59,239 nt of DNA from Deltaproteobacteria bacterium. GTDB taxonomy: Bacteria; Desulfobacterota; Binatia; Binatales; Binataceae. The translations under genes were made by a program, and so were the position numbers. The notes beneath the pieces were generated by a model. That model saw only the letters and a program-made list of their open reading frames with translations, made no database searches and was not told the DNA's origin. The DNA lies in assembly GCA_021799495.1 (NCBI GenBank), contig JAJZAI010000019.1, forward strand, positions 1-59,239, given 5' to 3'. Shown piece by piece: positions 4,008 through 57,350 of the stretch (position 1 is the stretch's first letter; each line of letters begins with the position of its first letter).

Positions 4008-5129
4008 ATGCCAACGGTTCAAATCAAAGACGAGGCGCGCATCGGCACGGAGGCCAAAATCAAGTTGGAACCCTCCGCATACCTGGAAAAGCTCTTCAAA
4101 ACCGGCACGCCCGACCTCGGCTGGATGAACGAGCACGGTGAATGGGGCGTTCGCGCCAAACCCGGCAATCTTGGATTGCGCCTGAAAGATATCGAGATTG
4201 GCAGCTACGGCGTGATTCCCAAGCACGGCGGCGCGCATTGTTCGATGGCGCCGCGCGGCTCCTTCGTGCCCAACGATTTGCCGTCGCTCGGCTTCTCACT
4301 GAACGAAAAGGCCGAAGTCTGGGCGGACAACGCGATGGAGCTTTACGAAGAGGCGGTGGCCCGCCAGTGGAGTTCCGCCCGCGATATTCCCTGGGATGAA
4401 CTGAAACCGTTGCCCGACGACCTCGAGCGGGCGATGTGCCAGCTTTGCACCTTCCTGACCGAAGTCGAATTTATCGCCGCGGACGCGCCAACGCGCTGGA
4501 TGAGCAAAATCAACCAGGATTTTCTGGAAGTGAAGCTCTTTCTGGCGACGCAGGCAATGGACGAGGCGCGCCATACAGACGTTTTCCGCAAGCGTGCGCT
4601 GGCGAACGGCGGCGGCCTGGGCAAAGCCAGCAAGCTCAGCGAATTGAGCCTGAAGCGGATTTTCGATTCGCCCAGCTTCTCGGCGCAGACCGCGCGCCTG
4701 CATCTGCTGGGCGAGGGCTTCGTGCTCACGATGTTCCGCCAGGGCGAGTTTATCGCGCCCAGCCGGGTCGATCAGGAAATTTTCCGCCGCTGCATGCAGG
4801 ACGAATCGCGCCATGTCGGCTACGGCACGATGCATCTGCGGGCGCAATTGAAGGAACGGCCGGACCTGGCCGGAGAAATCCACGAACAACTCGACGACGC
4901 GGAAGCGATCCTGCTGCAGCTTTTCAGCGTGCCGGAATCGGTCGAGCCGATGGCGATTCTGCTGGGCGGCGGCATCAAGAATTTCGACAAAGGGATGGAA
5001 TTGCAGGGCAGCCTCTGGCGACGAATCGTCAACGAATATTTGCAGCGATGCGATTCCGCGGGACTGGACCGGCGTCCGCGATGCCTGCTGCCGACCGATT
5101 TCAGCAAATTGTTTAGCACGGCCGCATGA
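4008..5129 (+). CDS. Ferritin-like diiron protein (RNR-R2-like superfamily)
   Basis: A 373-residue protein of the ferritin-like superfamily that is often mislabelled ribonucleotide reductase beta subunit. A full set of diiron ligands can be placed: Glu152 or Glu154 in TEVEF, Glu186-x-x-His189 in DEARH, Glu236 in GEGF, and Glu266-x-x-His269 in DESRH. It could therefore bind Fe-Fe or Mn-Fe and activate oxygen. The radical-site architecture of a true R2 is not recognised and no large RNR subunit is near. The roughly 100-residue N-terminal extension and the C-terminal tail are outside the four-helix core. Start 4008 has GGAGG 10 bases upstream. Its stop overlaps the SCP2-like gene by four bases, implying coupled translation and perhaps a lipid or hydrophobic substrate. 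Confidence 0.8.
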   Translation: MPTVQIKDEARIGTEAKIKLEPSAYLEKLFKTGTPDLGWMNEHGEWGVRAKPGNLGLRLKDIEIGSYGVIPKHGGAHCSMAPRGSFVPNDLPSLGFSLNEKAEVWADNAMELYEEAVARQWSSARDIPWDELKPLPDDLERAMCQLCTFLTEVEFIAADAPTRWMSKINQDFLEVKLFLATQAMDEARHTDVFRKRALANGGGLGKASKLSELSLKRIFDSPSFSAQTARLHLLGEGFVLTMFRQGEFIAPSRVDQEIFRRCMQDESRHVGYGTMHLRAQLKERPDLAGEIHEQLDDAEAILLQLFSVPESVEPMAILLGGGIKNFDKGMELQGSLWRRIVNEYLQRCDSAGLDRRPRCLLPTDFSKLFSTAA

Positions 5130-5560
5130 TGACCAGCTTTCCCGCCCCTGAATGGTTTCTCGCCCTCGGCCGCATGATGGCGGCCGAGGGCGAAGTTTTC
5201 CGCCGTCTCGGCTACGCGGAAGTTCGTTTCGTCGTGCGCGTGCTTGATGACGGCGGGAAAGTCGCAGCGGCGACCGCGATCGAGATTGACGGCTATGCGT
5301 TGACGAACGCATTCCAGCTCGACGGTAAGCCATTTGACGCGGATTTCGCGATTTGCGCTCCGCGCGCCGTCTGGGCGGAAATGCTCGAAGAAATCGCGCG
5401 CGAGGGAAGGGCGACGCTACGCCATACCCTGAGTTCGCTGGCGCTGGTGGGCGAGAGTCTCTGGCTCGAGTCCGACGATCAGCTCCGCGAAGACAAGTTT
5501 TATCGCTATAATCAGACGCTGCAGGAATTGTTCAATTTGTCGGCGCGACTGCCACACTGA
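5126..5560 (+). CDS. Small SCP2-like protein
   Basis: A 144-residue protein whose ATG overlaps the stop of the ferritin-like gene (ATGA), so the two are translationally coupled. The middle (FQLDGKPFDADFAICAPRAV, then a helix with AEMLEEIAREGRATL and a final strand-like segment) resembles sterol carrier protein 2 domains, which hold acyl chains or sterols in a hydrophobic tunnel. The match is by pattern, not by search, and some SCP2 hallmarks are weak. There is no signal peptide, so it is cytosolic. By context it may present a lipid substrate to the diiron protein or bind its product. Confidence 0.5.
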   Translation: MMTSFPAPEWFLALGRMMAAEGEVFRRLGYAEVRFVVRVLDDGGKVAAATAIEIDGYALTNAFQLDGKPFDADFAICAPRAVWAEMLEEIAREGRATLRHTLSSLALVGESLWLESDDQLREDKFYRYNQTLQELFNLSARLPH

Positions 5561-5597
5561 CCGGCTGCCGTCCGCGCCGCCGGACCAAAAACTTTTT
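5561..5597 (+). terminator. Possible terminator after the diiron/SCP2 pair
   Basis: An imperfect GC-rich inverted repeat (CCGGCtGC paired with GCcGCCGG, one mismatch) begins at the stop codon and is followed by an A-rich spacer and a run of six T. The stem is imperfect and the T run is not immediately adjacent, so this is tentative. Confidence 0.35.
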
Positions 5598-5665
5598 TGA
5601 CCGTATCAAACCGCGCGAGCGTGCTCGCGCCGTGACGCGCGCTTCATGGCGCGGGAGGCGGCATC

Positions 5666-6547
5666 ATGGACATCGGATTTCTCGCGGCGGCTACCGCCGA
5701 AGCCGGCGATATAGCTGAAATCGCGCGTCAGACCGAAGCGCACGGCTACGAATCGCTCTGGATTCCGGAGCATCCAGTCATTCCGGCGGAGATGCGCACG
5801 CCGATGCCGTTCACGGAGAACGAAAAACTGCCGGAGCATTACGGGCGCTGGGGCGATCCGTTCGTGGCGCTGGCGGTGGCCGCGGCCGTGACCAAAAAAA
5901 TCCGGCTGGCGACCGGAATCTGCCTGCTTCCCGAGCGCGAGCCGCTGATCACGGCCAAGGCCGTCGCTACGCTCGACCTGGTCTCGCAAGGACGCGTGGT
6001 GCTTGGGGTCGGCGCGGGATGGCTGCGCGAAGAGACCGAGGCAATGGGCGCGAACTTCGGCACGCGATGGCGCCGCACGCGCGAAACCGTCGAAGCGATG
6101 AAGATGCTGTGGCGGGACGGACGCGGCGCCTACAATGGCGAAACGATCAAATTTCCGCCGGTGCGATGCGAGCCGCGGCCGATGCGGAAATCGGGGCCGC
6201 CGGTGCTGCTGGGCGCGCATGGGCCGAAGGCGATCGAACGGGTAGCGCGGAGTTACGACGGCTGGATGCCGCTGCTTCAGGATCCGGCGCAATTGAAGCG
6301 CGACGTGGCGAATTTGCACGAACTGGCGGCAAAACATGGCCGCCAAAACGTCAAGTTCGAGATTTCGCCGCTGGTCGAACCGGGCGACGACGGCATGTCC
6401 GCCGACGCGCTGCGCGCTTTCCGCGACGCTGGCGCGACCCGCATCGTGCTGTTGTCGCAAAAATCGGTTAAGCTGACCGCTGACGGCCACGCGCTCGATC
6501 TAATCCGGCGATTTGCCGCTACCGTCGAGCGCGCCTGCGCGCTCTGA
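5666..6547 (+). CDS. LLM-class F420-dependent oxidoreductase
   Basis: A 293-residue luciferase-like monooxygenase fold protein. It begins directly with MDIGFLAAA. Typical segments are the RQTEAHGYESLWIPEH stretch, KIRLATGICLLPEREP, and LVSQGRVVLGVGAGWLREE, followed by the long FGTRWRRTRETVEAMKMLW helix of the F420 subgroup (TIGR03619-like). Such TIM-barrel enzymes use F420H2 or FMNH2 to reduce or oxidise small organics; the substrate is not predictable. F420 rather than FMN use is inferred from subgroup resemblance. GGAGG lies 10 bases before the ATG. It converges with prfB, 27 bases apart. Confidence 0.85.
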   Translation: MDIGFLAAATAEAGDIAEIARQTEAHGYESLWIPEHPVIPAEMRTPMPFTENEKLPEHYGRWGDPFVALAVAAAVTKKIRLATGICLLPEREPLITAKAVATLDLVSQGRVVLGVGAGWLREETEAMGANFGTRWRRTRETVEAMKMLWRDGRGAYNGETIKFPPVRCEPRPMRKSGPPVLLGAHGPKAIERVARSYDGWMPLLQDPAQLKRDVANLHELAAKHGRQNVKFEISPLVEPGDDGMSADALRAFRDAGATRIVLLSQKSVKLTADGHALDLIRRFAATVERACAL

Positions 6548-19162: not shown

Positions 19163-20656
19163 TCAAGACCGATGCCGCTTCGGCGTGAGTATCGACTGCC
19201 CGCCTGGAGTATCGCGCAACTCATAACCGAGCTGATCGGCCTTTTCATTTATCTGCACTCTCAATGCATCGGCGCGCTTGAAATCGCGACAAGCTCTCGC
19301 GAGCTCACGTTCCTTCTGCAAATTCTCCAACTCAAGCAAGCCGAACGCGCGCTCCTCGCTCAGACTTTCGTTCAATCGCTCCGCGAGGCCAAGACCCAGA
19401 AGCTCGTCAAATCGCAGCAGAGTCTTCAAAACCAACAAATCGCCGCGGCGGTACGCTTGACCAATCATGTCCAATACAATTGCCAACGCGCGCGGGGTGT
19501 TTAGATCCTGGTTGATCTCTTCGTGAAAACTCTCGATATATGCGTTCGTCCACGCGGCATCTTCAAAATCTGTAGCGCCGGAGCGCTGTGCATTCCGGCA
19601 AAATTCGTCGAGGTAATCGAGTTTCAATTCCATAGCCTCGACTGCGCTAATACTGAACGCTAACTCGGAACGGTATTTCGCGCCGAGACACAGCATCCGA
19701 AACGCGAGCGGATTGATTCCCGCCGCGACCAGATCATCGAGCACCGGAAAGCGTCCCGCACTTTTCGAGATCTTGGCGCCCTCCATCCCGACCAGAAACG
19801 CATTGTGCACGAAGTAGCGGGCGAACGGATGGCCGGTCGCGCTTTCGGATTGCGCGATCTCGTTCTCGTGATGCACCGGGATATGGTCGAGGCCGCCCGA
19901 ATGGATATCCAGCGTCTCGCCCAGATACTTCATCGACATCGCCGAGCACTCGATATGCCATCCGGGATAGCCGCGTCCCCACGGCGAATCCCATTGCATC
20001 AGATGAGCCGGCTGATTGAGCACCCACAGCGCGAAATCGTGCGGACTCTTTTTGTCGGGCGAATGTTCCAGCCGCTGGCCGGCGTGCTGCTCGGCAAGAC
20101 TCTGGCGCGCCAGCCGTCCGATCCCGCCCGGCCCGCGCCATTTTTCCACGTCGAAATAGACGCCCGACGGCGTTTTGTAGCCGTAACCGTTCGCCATGAT
20201 GCGCCCGATCACCGCGATCATCGCGCCGATATTGTCGGTGGCGCGGCAGAGCGCGCTTTGCGGCGGCGCCGGATGGTCGCCGGCGGGCGCGTCGGGCGGC
20301 AGTTCGATATTGAGCGCGGCGCAATCGCGCTTGAACTGCGCGATATAAAAATCGGCGACTTCGCGCGGAGATTTCCCCTGCGCGCGCGCGGTCTTTTCGA
20401 TCTTGTCCTCGCCCGCGTCGGCGTCCGAGGTCATGTGGCCGACGTCGGTGATATTCATCACATGCCGAACGTCGTAACCGTTGAAGCAAAGCGCGCGCCT
20501 GAGCGTATCCACAAACACATAGGCGCGCATATTCCCCAGATGCTGCGGCAGATAGACGGTCGGTCCGCAGGAATAAAACGTCACGATCCCCGGCTTCAGC
20601 GGGACGAATTCTTCGACCGCGCGATGGAGCGAATTGTAAATCTGGAACGGCTTCAC
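19163..20656 (-). CDS. cysS: Cysteinyl-tRNA synthetase
   Basis: A 497-residue class I synthetase attaching cysteine to tRNA-Cys. Cys30 (FYSCGPTVY) and later HIECSAM and GGLDHIPVHHENE supply the zinc ligands that select cysteine. The HIGH motif is the accepted variant HLGN (39-42) and KMSKS is KISKS. The C-terminal part has the usual anticodon-binding region. Length is slightly above the common 460-480. The 3' third looks less GC-rich than the 5' part and neighbours. It lies 66 bases downstream of the DCC-family gene on the same strand. Confidence 0.95.
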   Translation of the reverse strand: MKPFQIYNSLHRAVEEFVPLKPGIVTFYSCGPTVYLPQHLGNMRAYVFVDTLRRALCFNGYDVRHVMNITDVGHMTSDADAGEDKIEKTARAQGKSPREVADFYIAQFKRDCAALNIELPPDAPAGDHPAPPQSALCRATDNIGAMIAVIGRIMANGYGYKTPSGVYFDVEKWRGPGGIGRLARQSLAEQHAGQRLEHSPDKKSPHDFALWVLNQPAHLMQWDSPWGRGYPGWHIECSAMSMKYLGETLDIHSGGLDHIPVHHENEIAQSESATGHPFARYFVHNAFLVGMEGAKISKSAGRFPVLDDLVAAGINPLAFRMLCLGAKYRSELAFSISAVEAMELKLDYLDEFCRNAQRSGATDFEDAAWTNAYIESFHEEINQDLNTPRALAIVLDMIGQAYRRGDLLVLKTLLRFDELLGLGLAERLNESLSEERAFGLLELENLQKERELARACRDFKRADALRVQINEKADQLGYELRDTPGGQSILTPKRHRS

Positions 20657-20722: not shown

Positions 20723-21160
20723 TTATAAGGAACAGGCTGTGTCTGGCGATGGCGACTCGCCCGCTCGGCCGCGGCCGCGAGACGCCGCGATTCGCTTGTA
20801 TTGGCGATCGGCGAGCCACGCGAAGCCCGGCAGATACCATAGATACGCGAGCAATCCGCGGACTCCGCGCTGCTGGCGCAGCACTTCATTGATGGCGCGC
20901 GCGCCGCGCCACACGCATCCGGAATCATTGACGACGTGCAGTTCTTCGAGCAGCGCCGGCATCGTCAAATCGGGAAATCCGGCGCGCACGCCGTCATCGT
21001 TGAAGTCGAGCAGATCGATCTTCCCCGAATTGTCGAAGAGCCGCACGGCTTCGGCGCTCATCCGGCAGAGTTCGCATCCGCCGTCGTACAGCACCGCTAT
21101 CCGACCGGCACGAGCGCGTCCGGGATTAGCGGCCGGAACGGAACTGGACGGCGCATCCAT
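20723..21160 (-). CDS. DCC-family thiol-disulfide oxidoreductase (DUF393)
   Basis: A 145-residue protein with the hallmark YDGGCELC (Asp-x2-Cys-x2-Cys) after an N-terminal hydrophilic stretch, then LLDFNDDGV and RGARAINEVLRQQ, followed by a hydrophobic patch (LLAYLWYLPGFAWLADRQYKRIA). This is the thioredoxin-like DCC family, predicted to handle disulfides; real substrates are mostly unknown. It starts 7 bases after the free-standing LeuA regulatory domain gene, so both are one transcript. Its tail is Arg/Ser-rich. Confidence 0.85.
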   Translation of the reverse strand: MDAPSSSVPAANPGRARAGRIAVLYDGGCELCRMSAEAVRLFDNSGKIDLLDFNDDGVRAGFPDLTMPALLEELHVVNDSGCVWRGARAINEVLRQQRGVRGLLAYLWYLPGFAWLADRQYKRIAASRGRGRAGESPSPDTACSL

Positions 21161-21167
21161 GCGCGCC

Positions 21168-21680
21168 CTAGCGCTGGCCGTACTTGGGATTTCGCGCCAT
21201 CTCGCGCTGGCGCAGGTTCTCGCGCCAGATCCGCCATTCGTAGCCCTCGACCAGCGACTTCCATCCGGCTTCGATCGTGTTTCCCGAGCGGGCCAGCGTC
21301 GTCCACGACAGCCGGCCGTCGGTGAACTTGTTCACCGTGATCACGTCGGCCTCGGTCGATTCGCCGGTGGCGTGGGCGTAGGTCTCGGTCACGCGAACTT
21401 CGCTCAGATACGGAAAGTACTTGAGCAGCGCCTTGCGCAGCGCGTTGTCGAGCGCATGCACCACGCCGACGCCGCGCGCGGCTTCGGTCTCCTCGACCCC
21501 GCCGATTCTGATCACCAAGGTCGCGTCGCAAACCATCCGGCCCTCGAAGTAATCGTCGATTACCCGCCGCCGGATAATCTGGAAAGGCGCAACATAGTCG
21601 GGCGCGGTTTTCAGTTCGGCCAGTTCGCGCGAGGCTTGCGGCGCCTCTTGTTCTTCAAAAATCGATTCGCTTTCGGACAC
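21168..21680 (-). CDS. Free-standing LeuA/CimA-type regulatory domain
   Basis: A 170-residue protein matching only the C-terminal allosteric (dimerisation) domain of alpha-isopropylmalate and citramalate synthases. The signature parts are a GVGVVHALDNALRKAL helix, then LKYFPYLSEVRVTETYAHA, and WTTLARSGNTIEAGWKSLVEGYEW, which is the counterpart of the WGTVGVSxNIIEASWxAL stretch of citramalate synthase. The catalytic TIM barrel is absent, and the ORF has its own start and a 30-residue polar leader, so it is not the 3' end of a broken synthase. It may bind leucine, isoleucine or another ligand and regulate an enzyme in trans, or be recruited for something else. It is followed 7 bases later by the DCC gene. 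Confidence 0.75.
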   Translation of the reverse strand: MSESESIFEEQEAPQASRELAELKTAPDYVAPFQIIRRRVIDDYFEGRMVCDATLVIRIGGVEETEAARGVGVVHALDNALRKALLKYFPYLSEVRVTETYAHATGESTEADVITVNKFTDGRLSWTTLARSGNTIEAGWKSLVEGYEWRIWRENLRQREMARNPKYGQR

Positions 21681-21774: not shown

Positions 21775-22539
21775 TCACATCGCCAACCCGCCGTCAATTT
21801 GAACCACGGCGCCGGTGATATACGCGGCCGCGTCGCTCAGCAGAAACGCCGCCGCCGGCGCCACGTCCGCGACGGAGCCGAATCGTCCCAGCGGAATCAT
21901 CTCGAGCGCCGCCTTGCGATTCGCTTCCGGCAACGCGGCGGTCATGTCGGTTTCGATAAAGCCGAGCGCCAGCGCGTTCACGCGCACGCCCATCCGGCCC
22001 AACTCCTTCGCCATCGCTTTGGTCATTCCGATCAGGCCCGCCTTCGACGCCGAGTAGTTGACCTGCCCGGCCATGCCGCTCAGTCCGCTGACCGAAGTGA
22101 CGTTGAGGATCGCGCCGCGTTTCGCCTTCATCATGATGAACGCCGCCGCGCGCGCGAAATTGAATGCGCCCGTCAGGTTGACGCGCAGCACTTCGCTCCA
22201 GTCCTCTTCCGTCATCATCACGAGCAGCTTGTCGCGGGTCAGGCCGGCGTTGTTGACGAGTCCGTCGATCGCGCCGAATTCTTTTTTTACCGCATTGACC
22301 ATCTCGCGCGCGGCCTTGAGATCGCCAACGTCGGCCTTGAAAGCCATCGCTTTCACGCCGCACGCCGACAGTTCTTCTTTGAGTTCCGCCGCCTGCGCGT
22401 CGCTGCGCGCGTAATTGAACGCGACATTGGCGCCGCATCGCGCGGCTTCGAGCGCGATCGCGCGGCCAATTCCGCGCGTCGCCCCGGTCACGATTATTCC
22501 CTTGCCCGCGAGATCGCTCACTTGCCTGATAAAGTCCAA
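21775..22539 (-). CDS. fabG: 3-oxoacyl-ACP reductase
   Basis: A 254-residue NADPH-dependent SDR. TGATRGIG (residues 18-25), NNAGLTRDKLLVMMTEEDW, SVSG...YSASKAG and the ending GAVVQIDGGLAM are typical of FabG, which reduces beta-ketoacyl-ACP in fatty-acid elongation. With the PHA synthase in the window, it could also provide 3-hydroxyacyl-CoA (PhaB-like activity); this is inference. It lies 94 bases upstream of the LeuA-domain gene on the same strand, and no other fab gene is near. Confidence 0.9.
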   Translation of the reverse strand: MDFIRQVSDLAGKGIIVTGATRGIGRAIALEAARCGANVAFNYARSDAQAAELKEELSACGVKAMAFKADVGDLKAAREMVNAVKKEFGAIDGLVNNAGLTRDKLLVMMTEEDWSEVLRVNLTGAFNFARAAAFIMMKAKRGAILNVTSVSGLSGMAGQVNYSASKAGLIGMTKAMAKELGRMGVRVNALALGFIETDMTAALPEANRKAALEMIPLGRFGSVADVAPAAAFLLSDAAAYITGAVVQIDGGLAM

Positions 22540-57273: not shown

Positions 57274-57350
57274 TGGCGCGCCCGGAGGGATTCGAACCCC
57301 CAACCCTCGGATCCGAAGTCCGATGCTCTGTCCAGTTGAGCTACGGGCGC
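57274..57350 (-). tRNA. tRNA-Arg (anticodon TCG), CCA encoded
   Basis: A 77-base gene on the minus strand with all arms: acceptor GCGCCCG/CGGGCGC, D-arm GCTC/GAGC, anticodon stem TCGGA/TCCGA with loop CTTCGGA (anticodon TCG), T-arm GGGGG TTCGAAT CCCTC, discriminator G and encoded CCA at 57276-57274. The TCG anticodon reads CGA and, with modification, other CGN codons. No att-like direct repeat of its 3' end was seen in the window. Confidence 0.95.

Follow-up and report, generated by a model that had tools for sequence, protein, structure and literature searches.

A free-standing regulatory domain of citramalate synthase type in Binatia: a putative trans-acting subunit of CimA

Introduction

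The regulatory domain found in 2-isopropylmalate synthase (LeuA) and citramalate synthase (CimA) has so far been known as a fused tail. Of the systems described, the C-terminal domain of CimA (TIGR00977; LiCMS, the Leptospira citramalate synthase, structures 3f6g and 3f6h) is homologous to the protein reported here in both domain and fold, including the preceding helix. Our protein differs in that it has no catalytic barrel; in its family, the pocket tyrosine is replaced and the GxGP loop is altered. The LeuA regulatory domain (PF08502; Mycobacterium tuberculosis 3fig) belongs to the same Pfam family and shares the fold (Z 10.7). Again, our protein lacks the barrel and, unlike the LeuA domain, it is of CimA type and is scored weakly by LeuA models.

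Two further systems are analogous in function. Acetohydroxyacid synthase (AHAS) has a separate regulatory small subunit, IlvN or IlvH, encoded beside the catalytic gene, as in two of the families described below. The fold of IlvN is of the ACT type, and the large subunits of AHAS are not known to carry a fused regulatory domain. In contrast, the CimA considered here keeps its own. The second analogue, HisZ, is unrelated in fold to the LeuA/CimA regulatory domain. Note that a generic annotation name exists for proteins of the kind reported here. In PMC9734150, HisZ is the regulatory partner of short HisG, a separate protein controlling a biosynthetic enzyme. The likeness to our case would be that of a separate regulatory protein for a biosynthetic enzyme. 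Among related papers, the main text of one with passages on LeuA feedback does not contain the word 'citramalate' (PMC10464499), and another concerns citramalate pathways of Aspergillus (PMC6862759). We found no description of a free-standing LeuA/CimA regulatory subunit in the open-licence full-text literature; one may exist elsewhere.

Results

The window encodes a CimA-like regulatory domain alone

The window, meaning the whole 59,239-nucleotide stretch of DNA analysed, contains the features listed in Table 1. An earlier sequence-only reading held that one open reading frame, with its own start, encodes the LeuA/CimA allosteric domain alone and has no catalytic barrel nearby. All of this stands. 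The frame is open, and PF08502 (LeuA_dimer), the family named for checking, is the sole Pfam match up to an E-value of 1. The match spans residues 49-147 (E 2.8e-10) and scores 40.7 bits, where the curated cut-off is 24.9. No catalytic barrel was found anywhere in the window by tblastn (E <= 1e-3) using the CimA and LeuA barrels of the same genome as queries. The best NCBIfam match is the C-terminus of the citramalate synthase model TIGR00977 (9.1e-17). Only profile positions 412-520 of 526 are covered and, at 60.5 bits against 450, the protein is not a full-length member. LeuA models in NCBIfam match much more weakly (E 0.0084 and 0.15). These scores rule out a LeuA-type origin; judged on its sequence, the domain is CimA-like and not LeuA-like.

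Three PF08502 matches were detected in the genome. One is the free domain and the others are complete enzymes: a citramalate synthase (711 bits, cut-off 450) and a 2-isopropylmalate synthase (752.8 bits, cut-off 532). Hence, the free domain replaces no lost domain, and a split CimA or LeuA is ruled out. Besides the protein-coding genes, a tRNA-Arg (tcg) at 57274-57350 is the sole RNA gene detected in the window.

Table 1. Positions of the features discussed, numbered from the first base of the window
Feature	Position	Strand	Basis and remarks
Cysteinyl-tRNA synthetase (CysS), downstream	19163..20656	-	Pfam; near in 17/20 family loci; family-level synteny only
DCC1-like thiol-disulfide oxidoreductase	20723..21160	-	PF04134; neighbour, probably outside the system
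Free-standing CimA-type regulatory domain gene	21168..21680	-	GTG start, 170 aa; Pfam/NCBIfam, family conservation, dN/dS
Beta-beta-beta-alpha twice, LeuA/CimA regulatory fold, residues 33-151	21228..21584	-	pLDDT 89; match to LiCMS 3f6g
Strand-loop-strand, residues 97-113, pocket positions equivalent to LiCMS 451-468	21342..21392	-	Alignment to 3f6g
Ligand-loop equivalent GVGVVH, residues 70-75	21456..21473	-	GxGPVN in fused CimA; alignments
Helix, residues 15-24	21609..21638	-	Aligns with the ASFEL helix just ahead of the regulatory domain in fused CimA; alignment and model
FabG-like SDR, upstream	21775..22539	-	Pfam; near in 19/20 family loci; family-level synteny only

The predicted fold matches the regulatory domain of citramalate synthase

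A structure was predicted for the window protein from its sequence and those of 46 relatives. The model (mean pLDDT 89) has a helix followed by two beta-beta-beta-alpha units. What the sequence-only reading called a polar leader is, in part, a tail with low-confidence stretches (pLDDT below 50 at residues 1-3 and 8-10). The remainder is the helix, which has a counterpart in fused CimA (Table 1). The top Foldseek matches are M. tuberculosis LeuA and the isoleucine-bound regulatory domain of LiCMS. Structural comparison gave Z 14.0 against LiCMS 3f6g (rmsd 1.9, 117 aligned residues) and Z 10.7-10.9 against LeuA chains, with 3fig at 10.7. The remaining PDB rows shown have Z <= 7.7. Rows with Z < 8 were set aside; these are mostly ribosomal small-subunit chains, aligned over half the domain, and include one RAD52 row. 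The predicted structure is that of the pseudo-twofold regulatory fold of PF08502, and not the ACT fold of an IlvN-type subunit. Searching the sequences of solved structures with the window protein alone gave no match, and the family alignment gave only two chance matches (E 0.8). A wider alignment recovered LiCMS 3f6g (E 0.0012).

The free-standing form is conserved and under purifying selection

Families are referred to by the labels of our search tool (f1, f5, f2 and so on), with f1 being the family of the window. A class-level search covered 148 genomes. Among the matches listed, the free domain occurs in 40 of 41 f1 genomes, and the single exception is a genome that is 53% complete. Two of the 40 copies are incomplete: that of G016 starts at a contig end, and that of G351 covers 88 of 162 profile positions. 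Elsewhere in the class, the matches listed include free copies in 15/16 genomes of f5, 20/25 of f2 and 1/1 of f105, and none in the 65 genomes of other families.

Comparison of the window gene with four members of its genus gave dN/dS values of 0.03, 0.06, 0.29 and 0.17. In three of four pairs the value is below that of the FabG-like gene, and in three of four it is below that of CysS. Because 40 of 41 family genomes carry the domain, among the matches listed, and dN/dS is 0.03-0.29, it is not debris. We conclude that the free domain is a real gene kept under purifying selection. A C-terminal domain alone is also what would be left of a leuA or cimA gene decaying after rearrangement, and yet we give this explanation almost no credence. 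The N-terminus is conserved, the genome encodes both parent enzymes in full at other loci, and the conservation and dN/dS values rule out a broken gene. An open, single-domain gene under purifying selection is what a free-standing CimA-type subunit would call for.

The sequence-only reading would have been undone if all homologues were fused to a barrel. This is not so. A profile of free domains was searched against 395 genomes of the phylum, taking the best nine candidates per genome. Outside the class, free copies occur in at least 36 genomes of nine families, one of which, f86, is represented by a copy that begins at a contig end (L232). Overall, free-standing relatives are found in at least 13 families of the phylum. 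Note that free and fused forms were called by open-frame length, so that G411 was scored at 778 aa, though a 173-aa frame is present (L239).

Named matches for f1 were 'Deltaproteobacteria' or 'Proteobacteria' metagenome-assembled genomes, and for f5 the chromosome of an uncultured Candidatus Binatia. Among 50 named genomes, just two have free copies: the Binatia genome of L095, and that of L127, where the match coordinates agree with the f11 genome G112. The other 48 have fused forms, with the frame cut by a contig end in two (L096 and L117). In the Geobacteraceae genome of L108, a short 134-aa frame (G534:C12:11959-12333) matches the free-domain profile, with one stop inside the matched stretch; it is either a fragment or another free copy. 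Viral contigs, searched with an f61 protein as the query, yielded nothing.

The adjacent DCC gene is probably incidental

The sequence-only reading paired the domain with a DCC thiol protein encoded seven bases away. The spacing is correct, and the genes lie on the same strand (Table 1). Furthermore, 15 of 20 fetched f1 loci have a DCC gene beside the free domain. Taken together, these observations could indicate a DCC-coupled redox module, in which the pair is the working unit. We consider this very improbable. The free domain persists without DCC in 5/20 family loci and in 46/46 loci of other families, so DCC is unlikely to be a working partner and the proposed unit is not borne out. In addition, the DCC gene (dN/dS 0.26-0.33) is less constrained than the free domain. 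The pairing looks incidental.

We found no common operon partner across the families with free domains. Neighbours vary by family and include ArsC-like and GuaA/GuaB genes in f5, YceG in f2, and CxxCxxCC and DUF2333 genes in f11. At locus L061, CysS (4863-6332) is 81% identical to that of the window, compared with 95% for the FabG-like protein and 98% for the free domain. An assembly frameshift, or replacement of cysS, is possible.

In two families the free domain is encoded at the end of the cimA operon

In f61 and f33, the gene order is nnr-tsaE-lysC-cimA followed by the free domain. This was seen in 16/16 loci, one for each genome of both families in the phylum search; at L214 the contig stops short of the free gene's 3' end. 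In eight of the 16 loci, cimA and the free gene share 4 bp. In four more the free gene overlaps or abuts cimA, with spacings of -17 to +1 bp that vary with the start codon taken. Thus, 12/16 overlap or abut. The gaps in the other four are 14, 106, 193 and 603 bp. At the representative locus L206, Pfam and NCBIfam identify an NAD(P)H-hydrate repair enzyme, TsaE, an aspartokinase with ACT domains and citramalate synthase. The fifth gene matches PF08502 alone (69.4 bits).

The window copy is not encoded next to cimA, unlike the copies of all 16 f61/f33 loci, where the free domain is the next downstream gene at -17 to +603 bp. In the window genome, nnr-tsaE-lysC-cimA lies on contig C76 without a free domain, and the free domain is on C61. 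Similarly, none of the fetched loci of f1, f5, f2, f105, f11, f17, f99, f20, f32, f86 or f28, some of which are on short contigs, has a free gene beside cimA. Since relatives close the cimA operon in two families, we infer, as the best reading, that the free domain acts in trans as a CimA regulatory subunit. The trans-acting part of the sequence-only reading, which had suggested a leucine or isoleucine sensor, hence gains from these loci.

The same operons could be read differently, with another aspartate-family enzyme, such as aspartokinase (LysC) or a DHDPS-family protein, as the target. LysC is encoded in all 16 f61/f33 operons, and a DHDPS-family gene adjoins the free domain in 7/12 loci of f17. 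Against this, the domain descends from that of CimA itself and directly follows cimA, while the LysC of the cimA operon has ACT domains of its own. We therefore think regulation of these enzymes, instead of CimA, unlikely.

In six f17 loci (L220, L221, L224, L225, L226 and L228), the free domain lies near one or two radical SAM genes and a gene for a 249-aa protein that matches no Pfam family. The DHDPS-family gene is divergent in several. Possibly, this is an unrecognised biosynthetic cluster.

Free domains probably share one old origin

Three trees were built from different samples. An early tree took every second named locus, without seven fused loci. A fuller tree took every fourth named locus, without two f11 rows. 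A reduced tree included the f11 rows and dropped 21 others: seven free domains and 14 fused ones, the latter including several long or odd sequences. The fuller tree places 40 free domains opposite 51 fused domains, with weak support (60/52). In the reduced tree, 35 free domains are split from 37 fused domains with support of 97/84. Note that the free clades f1/f5, f2/f105 and f61-type have long stems, and that the tree program warns of long-branch joins. The single origin of the free clades may be a product of long-branch attraction.

Shared residues were also compared. The f1/f5 and f61-type clades have in common five residues that are rare in fused CimA (L23, P32, V71, F119 and I151). With the same thresholds, only P32 and F119 are common to f2/f105 and the f61-type clade. 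For a recent origin from the CimA of the same class, we sought residues tying f1/f5 solely to that CimA. None passed the test, which used four class sequences, and this origin was rejected. One old origin of the free domains seems likelier than several recent ones.

The ligand pocket is altered in the family of the window

We take the isoleucine pocket of LiCMS to consist of residues 430, 431, 451, 454, 458, 464, 468, 493 and 495. This list fits the letters of 3f6g at a constant offset. In the window copy, Tyr454 is replaced by Thr100, and Thr464 and Val468 are kept (Thr109 and Val113). At position 454, Thr is found in 10/10 f1 sequences, and Leu or Ser in 3/3 from f5. The position is aromatic in 51/51 fused CimA proteins and 22/22 f61-type free domains (24/24 with f11). 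Thr464 is kept in 10/10 f1 sequences and in f5, and Val468 in 8/10 and 3/3 respectively. There is an alignment gap at 458 in f1, and the loop after 454, before Thr109, is shortened. The GxGP loop reads GVGV in nine of ten f1 sequences (GIGV in the other) and GVGG in f5. Hence, f1 does not have the full LiCMS pocket, as far as an uncertain local alignment can define it. The fused CimA of the window genome retains its own regulatory domain, with pocket residues intact.

From these alignments, isoleucine sensing by f61-type free domains is plausible. For the window copy it is doubtful, because the Tyr454 position is Thr in 10/10 sequences and the next loop is shortened. The ligand proposed by the sequence-only reading is accordingly in doubt.

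The chief rival to a CimA subunit draws on the same residues. The window version may have lost its action on CimA and been repurposed as a small-molecule sensor with another ligand or target. Loss of the aromatic residue in f1 and f5, the shortened loop and the change from GxGP to GVGV in f1 are in keeping with this, as are four residues (E99, Y101, H103 and W149) invariant in 22 f1/f5 sequences and the position of the gene, away from cimA, in f1. However, free relatives adjoin cimA in two other families, the fold is unchanged, and the Thr464 and Val468 equivalents are mostly kept. On this balance we regard repurposing as somewhat unlikely, though it deserves more weight than the other rivals.

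Discussion

We favour, with modest confidence, a free-standing and dedicated regulatory subunit of CimA, derived from an old duplicate of the enzyme's C-terminal regulatory domain. In this scheme, an ancient duplication of CimA's own domain would have supplied the free protein, which would most likely dock on CimA through the dimer face used by LeuA/CimA domains. Once docked, it would act in trans to tune how active CimA is or how sensitive to feedback. In principle, this would resemble the action of IlvN on acetohydroxyacid synthase or of HisZ on HisG. Points in favour are the f61/f33 operons (16/16), the TIGR00977 match (9.1e-17), the split in the trees, the shared residues, the LiCMS fold and the dN/dS values. 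Against it, the CimA of the window genome keeps its own regulatory domain, so that a second is not obviously needed. Furthermore, the gene is away from cimA in the fetched loci of most families, and the pocket aromatic is lost in the window copy.

In f1, where the gene is away from the cimA operon and the pocket is changed, the signal may no longer be isoleucine. A more elaborate and tentative possibility is feedback in two tiers. Each CimA would have its fused isoleucine domain, to which a free subunit with a retuned pocket would add a different signal in trans. Such an arrangement would be ancient in the phylum. Some families have the subunit gene within the cimA operon, and others have it elsewhere.

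If a CimA subunit is the correct reading, a long-inherited free form, with a link to a lysC-cimA operon, would be a new design for feedback on the enzyme at which isoleucine synthesis is entered. Engineers would also gain an allosteric module that can be detached. With their pairs of cimA and partner gene, f61 and f33 make the idea directly testable.

A separate observation concerns these pairs. In the fused CimA proteins of f61/f33 that have an adjacent free partner (L200-L215), the position of pocket residue Val468 is Thr in 9/11 and Ile in 2/11. In the same alignment, the 11 free partners keep Val at 468. The contrast is a possible sign of division of labour.
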